Notes under the pieces: generated by a model
What the model was told of the DNA's origin: nothing
The model's input: only the letters and a program-made list of their open reading frames with translations
The model's database searches: none
Position numbers and translations under genes: made by a program
Shown: positions 1 to 26,107 of the stretch, one piece after another
Layout: each line of letters starts with the position of its first letter
Numbering within the stretch: position 1 is the first letter of the stretch
Assembly (NCBI GenBank): GCA_004114245.1
Contig: QZWS01000106.1
Coordinates: 1 to 26,364, forward strand
Length of the DNA stretch: 26,364 nucleotides
Reading direction: 5' to 3'
Source of the DNA: Zoopage sp. CT-All
Taxonomy: Eukaryota > Zoopagomycota > Zoopagomycetes > Zoopagales > Zoopagaceae

Positions 1-974
1 ACTTTGAAGAGTCTTTGGATCTTATCCAGCTTCACGGCATAGCATCTCATGCTCCACAGATGATTAAGGATCAACTTCCTCTCCTCGGGCACAGAGATAC
101 GCAGGCCTATTTTGTCGCTAGGGTACTTGAATATCTCAATGTCTTCATTGGGTTCGCCGTCAAGCAGATCGTTTCGGTAGGAGTCTGTCATCTTCATCGA
201 GTAAAAAAAGAACTCGTCGGCTATGATTTTAATCCCCATCATTATCTCAGGATATAATCCACGCACTAGTTTGGCATTGTCCTGGTAGGCTGCAATCATG
301 CAAGAGATTAACTGAATATCACCCTTCCTATACATCGAGTTCTTAAAATGCTTATTCTCTTGCATCGCCCAAATGATGCCCCTTCCGCGTCTTGCTTCTC
401 TGTCTGCATTGGCCGCAAATTTCAATTGACCCACAGAGAGGTCGAGGTCGCAAGATGCCATAGTAAGGTCATAGCCATCATTGAATTCGATGGCTTGCAT
501 GAGCTCGTTAGTCATGTCGTCTATTAACAACTCTCGTCGGGAAACTGTGTTATAATCCGGGCTGTTTATTGCCACAGCATTTAGCTTGTCAAGGAACAAG
601 TGCATTCCTTTACTCATTTTTGGGTAATCATCCGGATTGTAGAAGAGAATCTGGAAAGGGCCCATTCCATCAAGATACAAATCAGTGACCGAGGGTGGAG
701 GTGGGTCTGTCAATTCATTTATGCCCATTGCATCAGGGAATGTATCTTTACAGATGATCTGCATCCGCAGCATTTCTGCTTCCCTGCGGCCAAATTGACT
801 GGTGAAGCGCTTACGCCAGAGCATGTTGCTATCGCTTTCGCTAGATTCTGTGCGAGTCTCCACATGGGTGGTATTCTTTGCTGTGGTTGGAGTATACAGC
901 GCCCTCCAGTGCTGTCTCAGAAGTGTATCTTGTGCGGGGATGGGAATGTAGCATTTGCGGAGTGCACGGAGCAT
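1..974 (-). CDS. Orphan paralogue family, copy 1 (3' end outside window)
   Basis: I read one open frame on the minus strand from an ATG at 972-974 to the window edge: about 324 residues with no stop, so the C-terminus is missing. I do not recognise a known domain. It is homologous along its length to the genes at 10430-11520, 11939-12886, 22220-23218 and 23933-24919. Shared blocks are a basic N-terminus (MLRALRKCYIPIP), a D-x-FPDAMGI block, DLYLD followed by NPDDYP, DIQLISCMIAAYQ, YPEIMMGIKI, EFFFYSMKMT, EDIEIFKYP and the C-terminal LRISVPEERK and HLWSMRCYAV. The N-terminus is rich in Arg and hydroxylated or aliphatic residues and poor in acids, like a mitochondrial presequence; that location is inferred. 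A purine-rich tract just upstream (985-1005, CT-rich on the coding strand) resembles the CT-rich leader of copy 5. The start was chosen by alignment with the paralogues. Confidence 0.8.
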   Translation of the reverse strand, partial: MLRALRKCYIPIPAQDTLLRQHWRALYTPTTAKNTTHVETRTESSESDSNMLWRKRFTSQFGRREAEMLRMQIICKDTFPDAMGINELTDPPPPSVTDLYLDGMGPFQILFYNPDDYPKMSKGMHLFLDKLNAVAINSPDYNTVSRRELLIDDMTNELMQAIEFNDGYDLTMASCDLDLSVGQLKFAANADREARRGRGIIWAMQENKHFKNSMYRKGDIQLISCMIAAYQDNAKLVRGLYPEIMMGIKIIADEFFFYSMKMTDSYRNDLLDGEPNEDIEIFKYPSDKIGLRISVPEERKLILNHLWSMRCYAVKLDKIQRLFK

Positions 975-1987
975 GGCGAGCAGGTGGGAGAGGGAGAGGG
1001 GAGCGGAAAAATTAAGCTCTTTAGCAGTCCTTCTTCTATGGTCGGACAGCCAGGATTTAAGCCAATTGTGCCAAATCGAGAGCTTGTGTGGCTGACTAAT
1101 TCGATTAATCGGCATGATCTTGTGTGGTTAAGGAGCCAAACAAATTAGCTGAATATTGTTCACCATTGTATGAGACTCAAGGTATTTGGTGTCAACCTAT
1201 AGATCACTGTCTACCAAGACTTGAATAAGTATAATATAGCTACAGACATCACGTACCAACAGTTTCGGTTGCCTCGCTTGCATAAACCTGTGAGGGTCTC
1301 TGCCGATATCACTGTCGCCTTGCCATCAGTCGGCTGAAACACCTTCTCGTTATCGTCCGCAGGAGGTGAACCGTACAACTCAGCACATAACAACACAAAC
1401 GAGGTATGTTGATCCACGAGCCGTCCTGGGAGTCGAAAAAAGTATGAGCACTGCGGGGCCGCTGTGTTGGTATTATGCCTCTTGATACGTATAACGATTA
1501 TGGCTAGCTCAGTCTAGGTTCTTGCTGCAGTGCACCGTGTTTGCTTGTATCATCTGTGCACTACAAAAACAATCCAATGGGACACCAAAGTCTATCGGGA
1601 TTCGGAGGAATGATGGAGTGGATGGGTGACTTACTGCCGCCGAGCAGCTGCCATGTCCACCGCTTGCTGTACCGAGCAGGACACTTCCATCTTTTGGGCC
1701 TCGGCAATGGCAGCAATGCGGACCGTAGCCCTCTGCGCAACCAGAGCCAGTGAATGGCATGCATCCATGCCATCCGCAAAAAACGAACACCATGTCCTCA
1801 AGCGCCCAGCTCTACGACCCTGTCATAGACGTGCGACAGATGGATGCAACGCGTGAATAATATGCAGAAATTATGGTCATGGGCGGTGAGGTTCGCATGC
1901 CGTCTTCCAAGCACTCGATGGGTGGCTGGGGCGATTTCCGTGACTGCAAACTCCTACTTGCCCTGCCGCCACTCCGCTTGCCGCATT
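975..1987. other. Intergenic region, about 1 kb, mostly unassigned
   Basis: Between the divergent starts of copy 1 (974, -) and the EGF protein (1988, +). The first 30 bp are a GA-rich (coding strand CT-rich) tract. The segment around 1060-1100 holds, on the minus strand, CTCGATTTGG, which matches part of the upstream element shared by copies 2 and 4, but the rest of that element is not recognisable. The reading frames here are short and overlap on both strands; only the minus-strand candidate at 1561-1768 looks possible. Nothing else was found. Confidence 0.5.
1561..1768 (-). CDS. Possible small two-exon gene (doubtful)
   Basis: On the minus strand, an ATG at 1766-1768 opens a frame of helix-favouring sequence (LVAQRATVRIAAIAEAQK, then a Gln/Ala-rich segment). 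It ends at a good donor (GTAAGT from 1634). A 43-nt intron (1634-1592, ending GATAG) would join it to a short second exon that stops at 1561, giving 54 aa. The intron size fits the 42-47 nt introns seen elsewhere in the window, which is the main support. The frame is open upstream of the ATG to about 1815, so a 5' exon could be missing. No family is recognised, and an overlapping open frame on the plus strand weakens the call. Confidence 0.22.
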
Positions 1988-3649
1988 ATGCGCCGTTCAA
2001 GCGCCATATACTCCCCCCGGCGCATTTACATCCTCGCCATCCTTCTCCTCGTTATTCTAATATCCGACTCCTCTCCCGCAAGCGCCCAGACAGCATCCAC
2101 CGACCCGCTATCCACCTCTGTATGCGATAATCCCTCATGCACCGGCAACGTCGGTTTCGATTCATCCAAGTGCACCGGCTTCTCCCGCTCGCTCCAAGTA
2201 CTCTGCCCCTGTAGGCCCGGCTACATAGGCTTCAACTGCGAGGCCTGCGATGCTCGCATCGCCTGGGCCGGGGACATGATATCCGGGCAGATTGGCTGCA
2301 CCCCTTGCAACTGCCACGACCTGGGCTCGTCCGGGAAAAGCTGCAGCCGTGGTGTCTGCACCTGCAAACCAGGTTTTGCAGGGGATAAGTGCAGTGAGTG
2401 TGATGTCGGCTTCTCGGCGAATTTTCCAAACTGTCAGCGGTGCAAATGCAATCCCAGCGGGTCGATGTCGGCGGCGAACTCAACAACCCCAGCAGCAACC
2501 TGCGTGGATTTTAACGGTGCATCGCAGTGCAAGTGCAAGCCTGGGTACACCGGAGAAGGGTGCTATACGTGCGCCGGAAATGCCTACGAATCGTCCCCCG
2601 GCGTATGTTCCACCTGCGACTGCATTGTGGAGAATACCTTGGCCTGTGAGGCTGCCACGCCTGGAGCAGCATCATCCACGCCCTCATGTCAGTGCCGGGC
2701 AGGATTTGGCGGGACAAAATGCGAGCAATGCGCGAACGAGTTTACTAACTATCCCGAGTGTCGCGGCAATGTCTTTCTACAGAACAAGTCCGTGCTCATC
2801 GCTACTGCAGTCGCCGCCGTCCTCATCCCGATATTGCTGGCTCTCTTGCGGCGCAAGTCTCCTTCAGATGCAGACATCCTCCAACCATTCATGTCGCTTC
2901 TCTCCACCATTGGCCTCGCCACCGCCCTCCTCTTCTTTCGAGACCGTGCGCAGGGCTCGGATCTCGTCCTGGCTATCGTCACGGGCGTCTTCACCTTTGT
3001 CCCCTGGATTGCTAGTCTCGCCTTGTCATCCTGGATGATGCATGTCGAGCAGCGCGATAGCGAAGCCTTCCGAGTCTGGCTGAAGCAGAACTTGGCGCTT
3101 GCATCCGCGGTCGCCCTGCTGGGCATGTCTGGTGTCGAAATGCTCATGCTTCTCAGCTGCCGTGTGCTTGGACTTGGCGTCTTCTCTGCGCCCTGGCGCG
3201 AGACCACACTCACGAAAATCCAAGTGCGTGCCCTCTTCAATATTATTTTTGCTTCGCTGCCCCTTCTCGTTATACAAGCCATTGTGCTCTCGCGCGCTGG
3301 GCGGGACAAAAAAGATCTAGTCACATTGGCGAATATGTGCATTAGTGTGCTGCTGATATTGTTTGGTGTGCTCCAGCGAGTCCTCTTATATCAGATCTCC
3401 AAACGCGACAAGGCGATGCTGGAGAAAGCGAGCCCAGGCGTCGCTGACAGCAATAATGGAGGCATCTCAAGGCAAGTGGCGGCCACATCCAACATTTCTA
3501 ATCAGAAAGGCTGGCAACAATTGGACGATCAGAGTGGCATGAGAGCAACACTGGATGCAACGCGTCGGCCGTACCAGAAACCGCCGCCCCGGCCGCCTGT
3601 CCCAGAGCACCGACCTGGAGGTGCAAGTCATGGAGACGTCCGGTTCTAG
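1988..3649 (+). CDS. Laminin-EGF-repeat multi-pass membrane protein
   Basis: Protein of 553 aa. The ATG at 1988 puts a signal peptide first: basic RR, hydrophobic core (about residues 13-26), then an ASA site near residue 33. A longer in-frame start at 1844 would bury that signal, so I rejected it. Residues about 46-258 are a Cys-rich ectodomain of laminin-type EGF-like modules with repeated C-x-C-x-PG patterns (CPCRPGYIGFNC, CTCKPGFAGDKC, CKCKPGYTGEGC, CQCRAGFGGTKC). Six hydrophobic helices follow at roughly 268-287, 300-317, 326-348, 369-391, 415-436 and 446-468. The cytoplasmic tail is Ser/Gln-rich and ends near a proline motif (KPPPRPPVPEHRP) of the type SH3 domains bind. The arrangement suggests a cell-surface receptor or adhesion protein; ligand and function are unknown. 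No intron is needed. It converges on the gene ending at 3791. Confidence 0.85.
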   Translation: MRRSSAIYSPRRIYILAILLLVILISDSSPASAQTASTDPLSTSVCDNPSCTGNVGFDSSKCTGFSRSLQVLCPCRPGYIGFNCEACDARIAWAGDMISGQIGCTPCNCHDLGSSGKSCSRGVCTCKPGFAGDKCSECDVGFSANFPNCQRCKCNPSGSMSAANSTTPAATCVDFNGASQCKCKPGYTGEGCYTCAGNAYESSPGVCSTCDCIVENTLACEAATPGAASSTPSCQCRAGFGGTKCEQCANEFTNYPECRGNVFLQNKSVLIATAVAAVLIPILLALLRRKSPSDADILQPFMSLLSTIGLATALLFFRDRAQGSDLVLAIVTGVFTFVPWIASLALSSWMMHVEQRDSEAFRVWLKQNLALASAVALLGMSGVEMLMLLSCRVLGLGVFSAPWRETTLTKIQVRALFNIIFASLPLLVIQAIVLSRAGRDKKDLVTLANMCISVLLILFGVLQRVLLYQISKRDKAMLEKASPGVADSNNGGISRQVAATSNISNQKGWQQLDDQSGMRATLDATRRPYQKPPPRPPVPEHRPGGASHGDVRF

Positions 3650-7513: not shown

Positions 7514-8554
7514 CTACTTTAGTTTCAGCTGGCTATTGTGCGCATCCTCGCAGTCTTTCAGCCACTGTAGCAGCTTCAAGCAATACGCAGGTGAACAAAA
7601 ATCAGCATCGCCGGATCTGATATACTTTGCCAACTGTTGAGCCGCATTGCCAATAAAACACCCGAAAACTGAAGGTTTGGGGGCATGGTGATCCAATCGC
7701 CTGGCCACTTTGTCAACAGGTTGCAATAGTTCAGTGATAACTGGAAGCTTTTTCTTGGTAGTTATCTTACATGCTCGTGGCAATACATCAAAAAACACCT
7801 CATGACGAGCAATCGCAATCACAGGCAAAATCATAGAGGGGTGGAGGCAAATCGGGATGCTGTGATTGTAAAAATCGAATATATCCATATCTTTTGTAAA
7901 GGCCTCACCAGGTGTGTAGGGCCTTTCAATCACCAGTGGTGAGTCGGAGGTATACTTTAGACGGTCGAGGTAGGTAGATGCTATTTCACGCAATTCCCGT
8001 TTGGAAAATACGGGAGAGATTGTCTGCCTGTCAATGGAATCTAGGGGAGCGGCCTGCATAGCAGTAACTAGGGCATGAAAGGGATCCACTTGGATATAAT
8101 CTATAATGGACTTGCCCCTGAACAATGGATGAATCGACCTGCTATCAATACTTGCTAGCTGCATGAACACAGCCATCTGCACCGGCGATGGCTTAATGAG
8201 ATTCAAGTCAAAACGCCTGTTTTTGGAAAAAATACCATAGCCCGCATCTTCAAATATGGTCATGATGGCAGCCGCTTGCTTTGGATTCTCCTTGTTATGC
8301 GGGATCAACGTCTTTGCAAGTAGTATTTTAATGAGATTGTTCCTATCATTAAAGTGTTTGGGGAGAGGGAAATGGATAGGGAAATCGTCAGTACGAGCAG
8401 CTTGGATTGCATCAAGTATGGTGTAACTGGCGAGATTCACCTGATTGGGGTCACTCATACCACGATGCTTAAACGAGACATTGATCACCCTGTTGCCTGA
8501 TGCAGCAATGCAGCCGACAAATGCGGCAAGAACCAGGAGTAGAGCTTCGCGCAT
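7514..8554 (-). CDS. Secreted orphan protein
   Basis: Protein of 346 aa. The ATG at 8552-8554 starts a clear signal peptide (MREALLLVLAAFVGCIAASG). A frame extending upstream to 8761 adds 69 His/Cys-rich residues that would hide this signal, so I rejected that start. The mature part is mainly helical and moderately basic, with segments such as NLIKILLAKTLIPHN, QMAVFMQLASIDSRSIHPLF and ELREIASTYLDRLKY that look like degenerate helix-turn-helix repeats. There is no transmembrane segment and there are few cysteines. I do not recognise a catalytic motif or a family. It is probably exported or lumenal. The gene lies between the panB and OPT genes on the same strand, with no sign of functional linkage. 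Confidence 0.7.
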   Translation of the reverse strand: MREALLLVLAAFVGCIAASGNRVINVSFKHRGMSDPNQVNLASYTILDAIQAARTDDFPIHFPLPKHFNDRNNLIKILLAKTLIPHNKENPKQAAAIMTIFEDAGYGIFSKNRRFDLNLIKPSPVQMAVFMQLASIDSRSIHPLFRGKSIIDYIQVDPFHALVTAMQAAPLDSIDRQTISPVFSKRELREIASTYLDRLKYTSDSPLVIERPYTPGEAFTKDMDIFDFYNHSIPICLHPSMILPVIAIARHEVFFDVLPRACKITTKKKLPVITELLQPVDKVARRLDHHAPKPSVFGCFIGNAAQQLAKYIRSGDADFCSPAYCLKLLQWLKDCEDAHNSQLKLK

Positions 8555-8836
8555 TTTATGGGTATCCAGGATACAAAGACTTGAAGGCGATAGATGAGGG
8601 TTGATGGAGTGATTGGAAAGATGGCAACAAGGCAGACAGCGAACTTGACAGTGAGCGTGATGGCAAGCAAGCCTGTGGCAGGGTTTGGTTCTAGGGCGAG
8701 TTGCGGTGGTTCGGTGGTGAAGAAAAGTGACAGCACAGTCACTACTCGTGCCCCAATGCATAATAGAATAAACACCTCAAACTAGTCACCTACACTCATG
8801 GCCGAGTAAGACTGCATCGATGGCCATCGCGCCTTC

Positions 8837-10429: not shown

Positions 10430-11520
10430 TTATCTAGTAGGTCCAATCATACTCAACCCTGCAGTATAACAGCTCATGCTCCATAGATGGTTGAGTATCT
10501 GCTTCCTATCCTTGGGCACAGATATACGTAGGCCTTTCTTGCCGGGGTATTTGAATATTTCAATATCTTCGTTGGGTATACCACATGACAGATCTTCCAG
10601 GTAAGCGGCTGTCATTCTCATCGAGTAGAAATATAATTCGTCGCCCATGATTTTGATCCCCATCATTCTCTCAGGGTACACTTTATCCGCTGGTAGAGCA
10701 TTTTCCTGGTATGCTGCAATCATGCAAGATGCGAGTTGGATGTCGCCCTTCTTGTACTTTCCGAGGGGTATGTATTTGACCGCTTGCATTACCAATATGA
10801 TGCCGGTTCCTTTCCTTCCCACTCTGCTTGCTTTTGTTGCAAAATCTTTTTCCCCTACAGAGAGCCAAAGAGAGTAGGACAGCATGGTAAGATCTCTGCC
10901 GTTATCGCATTTGGCGGCCTTCATGAGTTCCATTGCCATGTCGTTGATACGCTTCTCTTCTTGGGGAACTTTCTTGGGCTGTGCATTGTTTAAAACCACG
11001 ATGCGCAGCTTGACAAGGAATGAGCATATTTCATCGCTCATCTCTGGATTGTTGACCGGACGGAAGCCAAGGATCTGGTCGGGACCAAACTGTTTTGCGA
11101 TGTATTGTTCTGCGATGGAGGCCAGCTTGGACATATGTATCCGAGAGAAGTAAAGTTCTTTTCAACAGTCTACACACCGCATCCCTGGCCACTACGTCCT
11201 TGCTCCAACACAAACTTGTCGAGGTATAGATTAGTGACCGAGGATGGGGGCGATTCCTTTGCTTCTTTGATGCCCACCGCATCCAAGAAGGAATCTTTGT
11301 CAATGATCCGGATTCTTAGTATGCTTTCTTCTGCATGGCCGAACTTGCTAGCGGATCTCTCAAATACGAGCTGATTGCTATCTTTGCTAGACCCCATGCG
11401 AGACTTCTTAAGGACAGTAACGCTTGCAGTGTTTGAACTATACATATTTCTACAGCGTTGTCCCAGGAGTGTATTGTTTGTGCGGGTGGGGATATAGCAT
11501 TTACGGAGCATACGAAACAT
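10430..11520 (-). CDS. Orphan paralogue family, copy 2 (interrupted by 122-nt intron-like insertion)
   Basis: Exons 11520-11212 and 11089-10430 (minus strand) join in frame to give 322 aa. The start (MFRMLRKCYIPT) matches the other copies; an ATG four codons upstream is possible. The N-terminus is presequence-like (RNMYSSNTASV). The body carries the family blocks LRIRIIDKDSFLDAVGI, SSVTNLYLDKF, GPDQILGF, FLVKLRIVVLNN, MELMKAAKCDNGRDLTM, SCMIAAYQENAL, YPERMMGIKI, YFYSMRMTAAYLEDL, EDIEIFKYPGKKGLRISVP and HLWSMSCYTAGL. Without splicing, the frame ends at a TAG inside the insertion and the gene would be broken. With GT-AG removal it is intact, adding only one Phe relative to the paralogues. No domain is recognised. 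It lies in tandem with copy 3. Confidence 0.75.
11090..11211 (-). other. Insertion in copy 2 behaving as a GT-AG intron
   Basis: A 122-nt segment begins GTGTTGGAG and ends GCAAAACAG on the minus strand. It lies between the codons for LYLDKF and FGPDQ, where the other four family members are continuous. TTTG stands at both junctions (11214-11211 and 11089-11086), as expected of a target-site duplication. It contains an in-frame stop, so it must be spliced or the gene is inactive. It is nearly three times the length of every other intron in the window. Confidence 0.7.
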
Positions 11521-11938: not shown

Positions 11939-12886
11939 TTAGTCTTCTCTAATCTCTCTTAATCCGGCAGTATAACATCGCATACTCCATAAATGGCTCA
12001 GGAGCTGCTTCCGATTCTTAGGCACCGAGATGCGCAGGCCTTTCTTGCCGGGATACTTGAGTATGTCGATACCTTCGCTGGGAGCACCTCGTGTCAGATC
12101 ATCCAAGTAGGAGGCTGTCATTCTCATCGAGTAGAAATAGAACTTGTCGCCTCTGATTTTGATCCCCATCATTCTCTCAGGGTACAACTCATCCACGAGT
12201 AAGGCGTTGTGTTGGTATGCTGCAATCATGCTAGATACGAGCTGGACGTCGCCTTTCTTTTCGTCTGTCATGTGACCGATCTGCTGCACTATCCATACGA
12301 TGCAGGCTCCTTTCCTCCCTCCTCTGTCTGCTTTTGCTGCAAAACATTCATTCCCTATGGACAGACTAAGAGAGCAGGGTGCCATTGTAAGGTTTCTGCC
12401 GTTATCGCATTTGACGGCCTTCATGAGCTCCATTGTCATGTCATCAATACGCTTCTCTTCTCGGGAAACTTTCTCGGGCTGCATGTTATTTACAACCACG
12501 ACGCGCAGCTTGACGAGGAATGCGCATGCATCGTCGTTCATCTCCGGATCGTTGCCTGGATGAAAGTCAAAGATCTGGTCAGGACCAAATTTGTCGAGAT
12601 AAAGATCGACGGCTGAGGATGGAAGCGGGTCAGTTGCTTCTTTAAGACCCATCGCATCTGAGAAGGAATTTTTGTCGATGATCTGGATTCTTAGTCCGCT
12701 TTTCTCTACATGGCCGAACCTGCTAACGGACTTCATGAATGCAAACTCTTTGCTAGAATCTGTGCCAGGCTTCCAAACGCTGGCAATCCTTACAGTGCCT
12801 GAACTGTATATCCTTTTACAATGCTGTCCCAGGAGCGCATTTCTTGTGTGTATGGGAATGGAGCAGTTACGGAATGCACAGAACAT
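11939..12886 (-). CDS. Orphan paralogue family, copy 3
   Basis: Protein of 315 aa from the ATG at 12884-12886 (MFCAFRNCSIPIHTRNALL), chosen because it matches the starts of the paralogues. The frame is open upstream to 13132, but that part includes the right inverted-repeat arm and is probably leader. The N-terminal 35 residues have Arg, Ser and no acids (KRIYSSGTVRIASVWK), like a mitochondrial presequence. Family blocks: LRIQIIDKNSFSDAMGLKEA, DLYLDKFGPDQI, DACAFLVKLRVVVVNN, MELMKAVKCDNGRNLTM, DVQLVSSMIAAYQHNALLV, YPERMMGIKIRGDKFYFYSM, DILKYPGKKGLRISVP and HLWSMRCYTAGL. It is uninterrupted where copy 2 has its intron-like insertion. No function is recognised. It is flanked by inverted repeats at 11821-11859 and 13097-13135. 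Confidence 0.8.
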   Translation of the reverse strand: MFCAFRNCSIPIHTRNALLGQHCKRIYSSGTVRIASVWKPGTDSSKEFAFMKSVSRFGHVEKSGLRIQIIDKNSFSDAMGLKEATDPLPSSAVDLYLDKFGPDQIFDFHPGNDPEMNDDACAFLVKLRVVVVNNMQPEKVSREEKRIDDMTMELMKAVKCDNGRNLTMAPCSLSLSIGNECFAAKADRGGRKGACIVWIVQQIGHMTDEKKGDVQLVSSMIAAYQHNALLVDELYPERMMGIKIRGDKFYFYSMRMTASYLDDLTRGAPSEGIDILKYPGKKGLRISVPKNRKQLLSHLWSMRCYTAGLREIRED

Positions 12887-22219: not shown

Positions 22220-23218
22220 ATGTTCCGTGTTCTCCGTCAGCGCTACATCCCCATCCGCGCGAGAGATGCACTCCTGGGACATCAGTGGAGAAAGATGTAC
22301 AGTTCAAGCACCGTAAAAGATACCAGTTCAAGCACCGTGAAAGATACCAGCTCAAGTGGAACAGAATCCAAAGTACTCTGGTTCAAGAACACCATTAGCA
22401 AGTTTAACCACGTAGAGGAAAGTGGACTACGAATCCGGATCATTGGCAAAGATTCATTCTCAGACGCAATGGGCATAGGACAAGCAACAGAGCCGCCTCC
22501 ATCCTCGCTCACTGATCTGTACCTCGATAAGTTCGGTTTCAGCCAGATCATCGCCTTTGATCCGGACGACTATCCGGAACTGAATGAAGCAGTAAGCTCA
22601 TTCCTCTTCAAGCTATGCGCTGTAGCTGAGATCCAAGCGCAAGACGAATTTCGTCACGAAGAAACGTACACCGACAATATGGCAGTTGATCTCATGAAAG
22701 CCGCCAAACACGACGACGGCAAGCATCTCAACATGTTGCGCCGCAATCTCAAGTTCTCCGTAGGAGAAGAGATATATTCAGTAAGAGCTGACAGGGCTGG
22801 AACGCGAGGAAAACGTATCGTATGGGTGATGCAGGAGATCAAACACCTAGGAGGCAGAGAGTACAAACATGGTGATGTCGAACTCGCATTGTGCATGATT
22901 GCAGCTTATCAGGCCAATCTCTTTTATGCGAAGCAAATATATCCTGAGAAAATGATGGCGATCAAAATCGTAGGCGACAAGTTCTTCTTCTACTCGATGG
23001 AAATGACAATCCCCTACATGAAAGATCTGGAAATTGGTGGACCTGACAGTGAAATCGAGGTATTCAAGTATCCCAGCGAAAAAGACGATATGTCCAAGCG
23101 CCACCGCGCGAGAGGCCTGCGCATCACTGTGCCCGAGGAGAGGAAGCAGATCCTAGACCATCTGTGGAGTATGAGATGTTATGCCGCAGGGCTAGATAGG
23201 ATTAAAGGTCGCTGCTAG
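22220..23218 (+). CDS. Orphan paralogue family, copy 4
   Basis: Protein of 332 aa with a complete, uninterrupted frame. The start MFRVLRQRYIPIRARDALLG is almost identical to copy 5, and the N-terminus is strongly basic with many Arg and no Asp or Glu up to the RARD motif, followed by RKMYSSSTV; mitochondrial import is inferred. A 24-bp direct repeat expands the STVKDTSS segment after it. The conserved body contains GLRIRIIGKDSFSDAMGI, PPPSSLTDLYLDKFGFSQII, FDPDDYPELNEAVSSFL, AVDLMKAAKHDDGKHLNML, DVELALCMIAAYQANL, YPEKMMAIKIVGDKFFFYSM, EIEVFKYPSEK and GLRITVPEERKQILDHLWSM. The C-terminal basic block and WSMRCYAAGL are the most conserved part of the family. No domain is recognised. It lies 714 bp upstream of copy 5 in the same direction. 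Confidence 0.82.
   Translation: MFRVLRQRYIPIRARDALLGHQWRKMYSSSTVKDTSSSTVKDTSSSGTESKVLWFKNTISKFNHVEESGLRIRIIGKDSFSDAMGIGQATEPPPSSLTDLYLDKFGFSQIIAFDPDDYPELNEAVSSFLFKLCAVAEIQAQDEFRHEETYTDNMAVDLMKAAKHDDGKHLNMLRRNLKFSVGEEIYSVRADRAGTRGKRIVWVMQEIKHLGGREYKHGDVELALCMIAAYQANLFYAKQIYPEKMMAIKIVGDKFFFYSMEMTIPYMKDLEIGGPDSEIEVFKYPSEKDDMSKRHRARGLRITVPEERKQILDHLWSMRCYAAGLDRIKGRC
22301..22355 (+). repeat. 24-bp direct repeat inside copy 4
   Basis: AGTTCAAGCACCGTAAAAGA plus TACC occurs at 22301-22324 and, with one change, at 22325-22348, followed by a partial third unit to 22355. It adds SSSTVKDT units just after the presequence-like region; the other copies lack it. Confidence 0.9.
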
Positions 23219-23230
23219 AAGGATTGAATT

Positions 23231-23334
23231 GCAGGCGCCAACAGGCTAAATGTATGAAACGTGCATGAGGATGCGAGTTGATGGCTGGATTAGCAGGCTA
23301 GTGATTAGCAAATTTGTATCTGAATCCTTAGAGA
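23231..23334. repeat. Conserved 3' flank of family copy 4
   Basis: On the minus strand: TCTCTAAGGATTCAGATAC, CACTAGCCTGCTAATCCAGC, CATCAACTCGCATCC, CATACATTTAGCCTGTTGG and CGCCTGC. It aligns with the flanks at 10313-10413 and 11829-11929. Confidence 0.62.
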
Positions 23335-23771
23335 TCATTCTTTAGTAAACGTTCTCGAATAATCAAGGCACACTAATAGGTGCAATGTGTAATATCCATT
23401 AGCTTGCATTGCCGCTACAGTCCAATGAATGGTTCTTAAAATAGTGGACTGCTATCTTGTGTCACTTTTGTCATTTGGGCAAATGGAAAGGTTTCATTAC
23501 GGTTGTTTTGTTGTGTTGAGCAGGATCTCCGATGTGTTCAGGGTTATAGAATTTCAGTACTTATCAGGACAAGTTGTGCTTGCTCTCCTTTATACTGCCG
23601 AATTACTAATATCACGTCATCGCTTTGGTGGCGGCTTTTTTCTATTGGGTTCCAGGATGCTGAGTCTGACCAAAGCCGTCGCAGCAGCTTTTCAGCAGCT
23701 TTTTCATGCCCCTTCTCCTTCTCCTTCTCCCCTCTCCCCACTCCTTCCGCCCTCTCCCACCCCTTCTCCTT

Positions 23772-23910
23772 TCTCGCCAGCCCCTCTCCTCTCTCGCCGC
23801 TCCCACTTCTCTCTCGCCGGCTCTCTCTTCTCTCGCCGCTCTTTCTATTCTCTCGCCGTTTCTTCTATTCTCTCGCCGCTCCCTCTCCATTCTCACCGCC
23901 CTCTCATCGC
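23772..23910 (+). repeat. 20-bp CT-rich minisatellite upstream of copy 5
   Basis: TCTCGCC starts at 23772, 23792, 23812, 23831, 23851, 23871 and, as TCTCACC, 23891: seven units with a period of 20 (one 19). The array ends about 20 bp before the ATG of copy 5, so it is part of its leader or core promoter. Pyrimidine-rich leaders are common at fungal transcription starts, but the regular period is unusual. Confidence 0.85.
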
Positions 23911-23932
23911 CCCTTCTCCTCTCACCCTCAAC

Positions 23933-24919
23933 ATGTTCCGTGTGCTCCGTCAACTCAACATCCCCACCCGCGTGAGAAGTGCACTCATGGGACATCAATG
24001 GAAAAAGTTGTATAATCCGGCCATTTTTAGGAGAACAGATTTAAATGGGACGGAGAGTGACGATTTCTTTTTCAAGAGTTCGGTTAGCTTGTTCAACCAT
24101 GTAGAGGAAGCCGGACTACGCATCTGGATCATCGACAAGAAATCCTTTTCGGATGCGATGGGCATAAAAGAAGCAGCAGAATTGCCTCCCTCCTCAGTCA
24201 CTGAACTGTACCTCGACAAGATCGGTCCCGACCAGATCCGCGATTTTGATCCTGACAACTATCCGGATCAGAGCAAAGAAGTTAGCTCGTTCCTCGTCAA
24301 ACTACGCACTGTAGCTATAAGCGGTACAGAAGTTGACGTTCCTCACGAAGTATCGCATATCGACTATATGGCAATCGATCTCATGAAAGCCGTCAACTAT
24401 GATGACGGCAGGCATCTCAATACGTTGCGTCGCACTCTCGGGCTCTCCGTAGGAGAAGAGAAATTCTCAGCAAGAGCCAGCAGGGAGGGAAAGAGAGGCA
24501 ACGGTGCCATATGGGCGATGCAAGAGAACAAGGTCGCGGGAAACACAAGGCACAAAGGAGGCGACATCAAACTCGCGTCGTGCATGATTGCAGCATACCA
24601 GACCAATGCTCTATACGCGCCGGGAGTATTCCCCGAGAGAATGATGGCGATCAAAATCGTAGGCGACGAGTTCTTCTTCTACTCGATGAAAATGGCAGCC
24701 TCTTACCTGGAAAGTCTGAATCATGGCGTGCCCAATGAAGACATCGAAGTGTTCAAGTATCCTGGCGAAGACTTCAGCAAAAGCAAGTATCACGGATCCA
24801 AGCTCCCTGAAGGCCTGCGCATTTCGGTGCCCAAGGAAAGGAAGCAGATTCTCGATCATCTGTGGAGTATGAGATGCTATGCCGTAGGGCTGGAAAAGTT
24901 TAAGATTCGCCGCCAGTGA
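23933..24919 (+). CDS. Orphan paralogue family, copy 5
   Basis: Protein of 328 aa from the ATG at 23933 (MFRVLRQLNIPTRVRSALMG), chosen by alignment to copies 2-4; a longer open frame to 23429 runs through a CT-rich repeat tract and is not accepted. The presequence-like N-terminus is basic (GHQWKKLYNPAIFRR). Family blocks are all present: GLRIWIIDKKSFSDAMGIKE, PPSSVTELYLDKIGPDQI, FDPDNYPDQSKEVSSFLVKL, AIDLMKAVNYDDGRHLNTL, DIKLASCMIAAYQTNALYA, PERMMAIKIVGDEFFFYSMK, EDIEVFKYPGED and GLRISVPKERKQILDHLWSM. Like copy 4 it has an extra short basic insert (SKYHGSKLPE) before the C-terminal block. No function is recognised. Its 3' flank does not align clearly with those of copies 2-4. Confidence 0.82.
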   Translation: MFRVLRQLNIPTRVRSALMGHQWKKLYNPAIFRRTDLNGTESDDFFFKSSVSLFNHVEEAGLRIWIIDKKSFSDAMGIKEAAELPPSSVTELYLDKIGPDQIRDFDPDNYPDQSKEVSSFLVKLRTVAISGTEVDVPHEVSHIDYMAIDLMKAVNYDDGRHLNTLRRTLGLSVGEEKFSARASREGKRGNGAIWAMQENKVAGNTRHKGGDIKLASCMIAAYQTNALYAPGVFPERMMAIKIVGDEFFFYSMKMAASYLESLNHGVPNEDIEVFKYPGEDFSKSKYHGSKLPEGLRISVPKERKQILDHLWSMRCYAVGLEKFKIRRQ

Positions 24920-25219: not shown

Positions 25220-26107
25220 TTATCGTCTGTCATCATCACTATCGCTGTAATCATCGCTGTCACTGTCACTGTCACTGTCGCTATCGCTGTAATCGTCGCT
25301 GTCACTGTCACTGTCACTTTCACTGTAGTCGTCGCTGTCACTGTCACTGTCGCTATCGCTGTAATCGTCGCTGTCACTGTCACTGTCACTTTCACTGTAG
25401 TCGTCGCTGTCACTGTCACTGTCACTATCGCTGTAATCGTCGCTGTCACTGTCGCTGTCGCTGTCGCTGTAATCGTCACTGTCACTGTCACTTTCACTGT
25501 AGTCGTCGCTGTCACTGTCGCTGTCGCTATCGCTGTAATCGTCACTGTCGCTGTCGCTATCGCTGTAATCGTCGCTGTCACTGTCGCTATCGCTATCACT
25601 GTCATCTTCACCAACATCCGCAATATCATCTTCCCTGTCATCTTCACCATCATTCGTCACGTTGGCGTTCTCATCTGGTAGATTCGGCGGGCGCTGTATC
25701 ACATTCCCATTGAACAGAGTTTGAGTCTGCGCACCGCCAACAATATTTCCCCATGGCAGCAGATGGTCTGCGGGCTCCCACATCTTCGGCATGGCAGAGA
25801 ATAGCAATGCCGAGCTCACATCTTGGTAAACAATCGGGCGCTTGCTTAGCTCATGCATGCGCCCCATCTCCCCATGGCGATACATTGGTCGACAGTGCCG
25901 GAGCTGGTTTTCCGGGACCAGAGGCAGAGACGGAGGCGGCGCAACAGACTGGCGGAATGCACGAACAACTCGGGCAGGCTCATAACCACCGCGGAAGAAC
26001 ATACGCCACAAATGATCCTGCTCAGCCTGTGTGCGCATAGGACAATTCGCGGCCTTTGGCCGGATGGACGGGAGTATAATCTGCTTGAAATTGGGGCACT
26101 TGAGCAT
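25220..26107 (-). CDS. Acidic Ser-Asp-repeat protein, unknown function
   Basis: Protein of 295 aa from the ATG at 26105-26107. Residues 1-150 are an ordinary-composition region with no motif I recognise, including [20 protein letters not shown] (perhaps a short helical domain), a basic, His-containing middle and [15 protein letters not shown]. Residues 150-168 are acidic. From about 169 to 292 the sequence is Ser-Asp dipeptides punctuated about ten times by DDYSD or DDYSE, spaced 10-14 residues. Such tails are strong casein kinase 2 targets and are highly charged; roles in other proteins range from calcium binding to nucleolar scaffolding, none provable here. No signal peptide is seen. Occurrence C of the shared upstream element lies 24 bp before the ATG, which links its control to family copies 2 and 4. 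Confidence 0.65.
25232..25603 (-). repeat. Ser-Asp coding repeat array
   Basis: Plus-strand hexamers GTCACT, GTCGCT and ATCGCT in tandem, broken by GTAATCGTC or GTAGTCGTC at 30-42 bp intervals (encoding DDY). The alternation of DDYSE and DDYSD gives a higher-order period of about 66-72 bp over part of the array. All three frames on both strands are nearly free of stops, which produces spurious overlapping open frames. Confidence 0.92.

Follow-up and report, generated by a model that had tools for sequence, protein, structure and literature searches.

A multi-copy fungal gene family best read as having a PD-(D/E)XK fold, with frequent loss of catalytic residues

We describe a multi-copy gene family of the fungus Zoopage sp. 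CT-All, five copies of which lie on contig QZWS01000106.1 (C354), whose entire 26,364 bases are called the window here. The copies stand amid ordinary genes (OPT transporter, ribosomal L29-type, RING-variant and RhoGEF-FYVE, by Pfam), and the 8.62 Mb assembly of 419 contigs (GCA_004114245.1) was searched for further members. Our favoured explanation, for which we judge the chances to be about even, is that the five genes represent a new PD-(D/E)XK-fold family of duplicated, mostly residue-losing copies that would bind nucleic acids in mitochondria, a minority of them still cutting. The family, its fold model, the loss of residues and the relaxed constraint were computed directly. Lineage-specific families mostly remain 'unknown'; here, one is placed in a superfamily.

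Fold and relatives of the family

The fold of the family is best read as PD-(D/E)XK, that is, restriction-endonuclease-like. The model of a relative, P0006, shows the core fold (helix, three-stranded meander, helix, strand), and the Foldseek and VIA rows agree with it; an earlier model built from the copies of this genome alone was too poor for use. The catalytic D and (D/E)xK of the superfamily, on strands 2 and 3, are present in 19 of 20 outside rows and in 5 of 16 rows from this genome. The family thus qualifies for the PD-(D/E)XK superfamily, though most of its aligned copies here are without the full residue set. In a viral structure library, no match fell below 1e-3; the weak matches included PD-(D/E)XK exonucleases.

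Additional evidence came from contig C200. A distant paralogue in the region of the contig start (C200:1561-2454, minus strand; locus L070) carries IPDMTLYRGREISIVLEVKH, a PD...ExK stretch (EVKH) that we take to be a textbook PD...ExK motif. It aligned with the family profile across 205 columns (P 8.5e-5), D and ExK being in register, and its score of 39.2 compares with at most 26.7 for 20 shuffles, 14.8 for the reversed sequence and at most 15.9 for seven other window proteins. A second C200 gene (1-597, plus strand) matches the C-terminal part of the profile with P 8.7e-7, the shuffle controls covering the first gene only. The active-site stretch of the first gene touches HSDR_N (E 0.11) and Cas4 (E 0.02), both PD-(D/E)XK families, neither match being significant. 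These two divergent C200 relatives, one of which has the PD...EVKH stretch, link the family to this superfamily.

Searches of known families returned little. Pfam gave no match for four window copies and none above noise for 22 aligned copies of this genome (best E 0.064), NCBIfam none for three window copies, PHROGs and PADLOC none for window copy 22220 or the relatives P0006, P0022 and P0023, and a sequence search of PDB nothing significant. A single-sequence protein search found no relative, and profile searches were required. The profile of the 22 own copies retrieved 6 proteins (E 5.2e-100 or better); with these added, it retrieved 21, of which 20 derive from jgi/ena/lgn sources, taken as metagenomes, and one from the chytrid Borealophlyctis nickersoniae (P0023, E 3.2e-20). 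From the sequence, a fungal host is indicated by Pet127, the OPT transporter and this chytrid relative; IFT57 had no hit above its cut-off, and COX1 did not turn up in the assembly. No relative appeared in scans of viral contigs, bacterial and archaeal genomes and phage records. The initial annotation had called the family a lineage-specific orphan without a fitting domain. The relatives in other sources and in Borealophlyctis contradict the first part; of the second, the lack of a Pfam or NCBIfam match stands, while the fold can now be read as PD-(D/E)XK. In the open-licence PubMed Central literature, no description of the family was found in titles and the starts of abstracts. The superfamily is well known; the family itself is new, and the Pfam copy used does not contain it.

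For comparison of residues and for the tree, alignment A3 held 16 own rows (6 of the 22 own rows of alignment A1 omitted) and 20 outside rows, with P0021 omitted; P0020 was also omitted from the tree. Among the 35 rows of the tree, a branch (94/100, not starred) parts 18 outside rows from the copies of this genome. P0023 falls outside both groups, and P0023, P0022 and L027 are long branches of unsure placement.

Catalytic residues and selection

The catalytic residues are D163, E178 and K180 in P0006 numbering (columns of A3). Outside rows keep D in 19 of 20, and E, K and the helix Gln in all 20. Own rows keep D in 10, E in 9 and K in 11 of 16, with all three together in 5 and at least one lost in 11; in the 22 own rows of A1, 8 retain D, E and K by eye. 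Within the own rows, variability at the three catalytic columns ranks above that of most others (62nd-72nd percentile), and D191 of P0006, which opens the next helix, does not vary. Judged by these columns, the own copies have retained the fold and released the active site.

Pairwise maximum-likelihood (ML) estimates of the nonsynonymous to synonymous rate ratio (dN/dS) ranged from 0.48 to 0.67 in nine pairs, chosen from 136 and some sharing members. A ratio of 1 was rejected in eight of them (2dlnL 5.0-15.7, threshold >3.84; ninth pair 2.6). For the two neighbouring window copies, with 265 differences between them, neutral simulation leaves a mean of 7.3 stop codons, never fewer than 3 over 200 runs, and none was observed. 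The NG86 ratio averages 0.66-0.69 under neutral simulation, and two of five observed pairs lie below all 60 runs. As transition bias puts neutrality near these values, NG86 dN/dS alone is misleading and was replaced by ML. Mean nonsynonymous divergence (pN) reaches 0.45 in the linker that follows the presequence, against 0.22 in the presequence itself and 0.22-0.33 elsewhere; when scaled by synonymous divergence (pN/pS), the presequence is less constrained (0.65) than either the N-terminal core (0.47) or the C-terminal half (0.50). The own copies are under relaxed purifying selection. Together with the P0006 model, dN/dS below 1 supports the earlier description of a folded, constrained protein. 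The initial annotation had also named, as the mark of decaying repeats, a dN/dS close to 1 along with a large number of broken copies; broken or partial copies are indeed many (13 of 30 loci), whereas the ML ratios and the rejection of 1 in eight of nine pairs speak otherwise.

Copies, duplication unit and N-terminus

All five copies that had been proposed in the window were recovered (3-974, 10430-11520, 11939-12886, 22220-23218 and 23933-24919; Table 1), and a degenerate DNA pattern for FYSM has exactly five window matches, which are these copies (chance expectation 0.04). Four are full-length and open, including the copy that runs off the contig end. The fifth, previously taken as a single gene, is in two pieces separated by an insertion of roughly 100 nucleotides (nt) (11100-11215, minus strand), which is flanked by AGTTTG direct repeats and has GT and AG close to its two ends; candidates for its nature are a new intron, an inserted element and plain damage. 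The open reading frame (ORF) of W23933 stays open for another 504 nt upstream, and its 5' flank is unlike that of other copies by eye.

Table 1. Family copies in the window and parts of copy W22220
Feature	Position	Strand	Description
W22220	22220..23218	+	332 aa, full length; D191, E206, K208 (D-ExK) present
W22220 N-terminus, residues 1-28	22220..22303	+	Arg-rich, acid-poor, presequence-like; ends at Met-Tyr-Ser stretch
W22220 putative active-site segment	22790..22843	+	Codons D191 22790-22792, E206 22835-22837, K208 22841-22843; register from C200 paralogue alignment
W22220 3' flank	23219..23320	+	Homology to C255 and C275b reaches ~100 nt beyond stop
W23933	23933..24919	+	328 aa, full length; D -> S, ExK retained
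W11939	11939..12886	-	315 aa, full length; D retained, E -> Q, K -> G
W3	3..974	-	324 codons, open; no stop before contig end; D-ExK retained
Interrupted copy, C-terminal part	10430..11134	-	D -> S, E -> A
Interrupted copy, N-terminal part	11200..11520	-	Frame differs from 10430..11134 part

The expectation of many more copies in the genome was borne out. A protein search gave 35 matches, grouped into 30 loci on 17 contigs, the weakest of which (C33, 35 residues, E 2e-4) is doubtful; several loci lie at contig ends, and 30 is therefore probably a lower bound. A full-length open frame is present at 17 loci, counting the copy at 3-974 that leaves the contig, C313:20149-21078 without the usual ATG and C313:21195-22133 with a stop a few residues early; the other 13 are interrupted, survive as fragments or are truncated where their contig stops. 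Among the 136 pairs of the 17 full-length copies, synonymous divergence (dS) is below 0.4 in 7 (lowest 0.15), and the 25 closest pairs reach 0.61. The family had been described as recently expanding, which fits these 7 pairs; most pairs are more distant.

Among the pairs listed, similarity between copies begins 0 to about 20 nt 5' of the ATG and stops 84-170 nt 3' of the stop codon. For one copy, the 3' piece matches the genome at four places including its own, every one adjoining family copies. By eye, a 3' flank stretch common to several copies, with a short TGATTCCCTCAGGGAGCAATCA-like palindrome, lies some 60-140 nt past the stop (L022:1290-1440, minus strand). At C230:28237-29787 (locus L025), two truncated copies are joined tail-to-tail inside the coding region. 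Pfam found no transposase, integrase or reverse transcriptase in 20 flanking ORFs (among the 24 longest listed); 9 have a Pfam family (tubulin, KH, PI3/PI4 kinase, ribosomal L1 and similar) and 11 have no match. No poly(A) tail was seen by eye at the 3' edges of the duplicated units examined.

Over residues 1-28, the 16 ATG-starting full-length copies of this genome have means of 4.4 Arg and 0.6 acidic residues, for a net charge of +5.4, compared with 1.9 Arg and 5.2 acidic residues (net -0.2) in 18 outside proteins, of which P0013 stands at +4. A basic start, as noted at the outset, and one poor in acidic residues, is found in all 16. The Met-Tyr-Ser stretch around residue 27 resembles processing-peptidase sites. 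Import of the family proteins into mitochondria, as suggested by the composition of their N-termini, is possible to likely.

Three other window genes were observed. The membrane-type protein encoded at 1844-3649 (plus strand) contains four stretches of laminin-type EGF repeats (PF00053), which are unusual in a fungus. The protein at 7514-8761 (minus strand) has no Pfam or NCBIfam match, and an inner Met opens the signal-peptide-like stretch MREALLLVLAAFVGCIAAS. The protein at 25220-26107 (minus strand) ends in a long Ser-Asp repeat from a 30/36-bp tandem repeat (25257-25606).

Alternative explanations and comparison with known systems

In the explanation that we favour, the ancestor would have resembled the outside relatives, with roughly 290 residues, an intact D-x14-E-x-K, a Gln opening the following helix and no presequence; from these residues, we infer that it was probably an active nuclease. 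The Arg-rich, presequence-like start may have been gained in the copies of this genome, since it is absent in most relatives. The copies would have multiplied by duplication of a unit made of the coding region and about 100-150 nt of its 3' flank, followed by birth and death of copies in which the frame and the structural residues were retained, whereas one or more catalytic residues disappeared from the majority of the aligned copies. Their proteins, if imported as their N-termini suggest, may bind mitochondrial RNA or DNA without cutting it, by analogy with the animal proteins mL37/mL65 on mitoribosomal RNA, and a putative minority would still be able to cut. Several observations weigh against this scheme. 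The Foldseek template-modelling (TM) scores are modest; a sequence link to mL37 was not found, with P 0.56 in hhalign of the family profile against a 103-residue mL37 piece and no PDB sequence match; and several own copies retain the full D-E-K set. The hydrophobic moment does not separate own N-termini (0.31) from those of relatives (0.29), both indicating ordinary amphipathicity. Since two of eight unrelated window genes are equally basic (net +5) and acid-free, the N-terminal composition is only suggestive. The earlier proposal of mitochondrial proteins thus draws on composition.

The D-ExK copies (22220 and 3-974) could instead be active nucleases that cleave RNA or DNA in mitochondria, as Pet127 or MGME1 do, the degenerate copies dying out. 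This is unlikely, though it merits real consideration: two of the five copies in the window, and 8 of the 22 in alignment A1, retain D, E and K together, E, K and Q are present in 20 of 20 outside rows, and Pet127 (PMC9014873) is a precedent for mitochondrial PD-(D/E)XK enzymes. However, one or more of the three residues are missing from 11 of the 16 own copies, which still persist as open frames or long pieces of them, the genome already has Pet127, and W22220 has E at the position of the outside rows' helix Gln. We consider it quite improbable that the family is selfish or linked to a mobile element, its unit duplicating itself and its copies decaying after arrival. The lack of transposase, integrase or reverse transcriptase in the 20 flanking ORFs, the lack of a poly(A) tail visible at the 3' edges examined and dN/dS below 1 all argue against it, even though 30 dispersed loci on both strands, 13 of them broken or partial, the unit edges in the pairs listed and a 3' piece found only beside family copies are what it would lead one to expect.

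Secreted CRN (Crinkler)-type effectors, reaching the host cell and its mitochondria, are highly unlikely. The C-termini of CRNs, in which a restriction-endonuclease (REase)-superfamily domain is often present, are a known case of expanded nuclease-fold families, and CRNs exist in a chytrid, according to PMC5289972. That source defines CRNs by a ubiquitin-like header with an LFLAK-type motif, which was not seen by eye in the 22-row family alignment; moreover, the N-termini have no hydrophobic signal stretch by eye, and the Pfam scans contain no NTPase or kinase domain. That the copies are decaying repeats without present function is very improbable indeed: eight of nine ML pairs reject 1 (with the shared members and selection of pairs noted above), 17 full-length open frames persist with dS from 0.15 up, and structural columns are invariant or nearly so. 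What favours decay is a dN/dS that is high for a gene family, one pair of nine indistinguishable from 1, and a neutral NG86 average that only two of five pairs clearly undercut.

Among known systems, the fungal mitochondrial enzyme Pet127 is described in PMC9014873 as a PD-(D/E)XK 5'-3' exoribonuclease. Its family, PF08634, occurs at one place in this genome (C336:6209-7088, minus strand; locus L080), and the Pfam scans of the family proteins contain no PF08634 row. The Pet127 gene appears as two matches 49 nt apart, perhaps separated by an intron; full-length family copies match unbroken. BpuSI, DrdV (N-terminal nuclease part) and NucC are bacterial and align over 136-156 residues without a sequence match. 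CRN/Crinkler REase domains and the fungal Spok proteins are eukaryotic PD-(D/E)XK or REase-superfamily families like the present one, in which neither a CRN header nor an NTPase or kinase domain was seen.

A further comparison is with mL37/mL65 (MRPL37, MRPS30) of the animal mitoribosomal large subunit, whose Pfam family we take to be PDCD9. In the structure models, these proteins appear to share the fold over most of their length, at 6-9% identity and Foldseek TM 0.35-0.46. PDCD9 was absent from the Pfam results for 22 own proteins and 8 outside ones; searched against the genome it gave nothing, but also nothing in control genomes, so that this result is uninformative. The family is multi-copy and fast-evolving, which is unexpected for a core ribosomal protein such as mL37/mL65. 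A more speculative idea, to which we give a low probability, is that animals made mL37/mL65 out of a nuclease to which the present family is a sister line in fungi, representing a second mitochondrial entry of the same eukaryotic PD-(D/E)XK architecture, with the change from active nuclease to non-cutting nucleic-acid binder under way in this genome and active-looking forms alive in relatives. Both states occur side by side, in relatives that keep the nuclease residues and in expanded paralogues that have the fold with residues lost. They offer a natural series for how a nuclease turns into a binder, and for whether mL37/mL65 arose from such a family.
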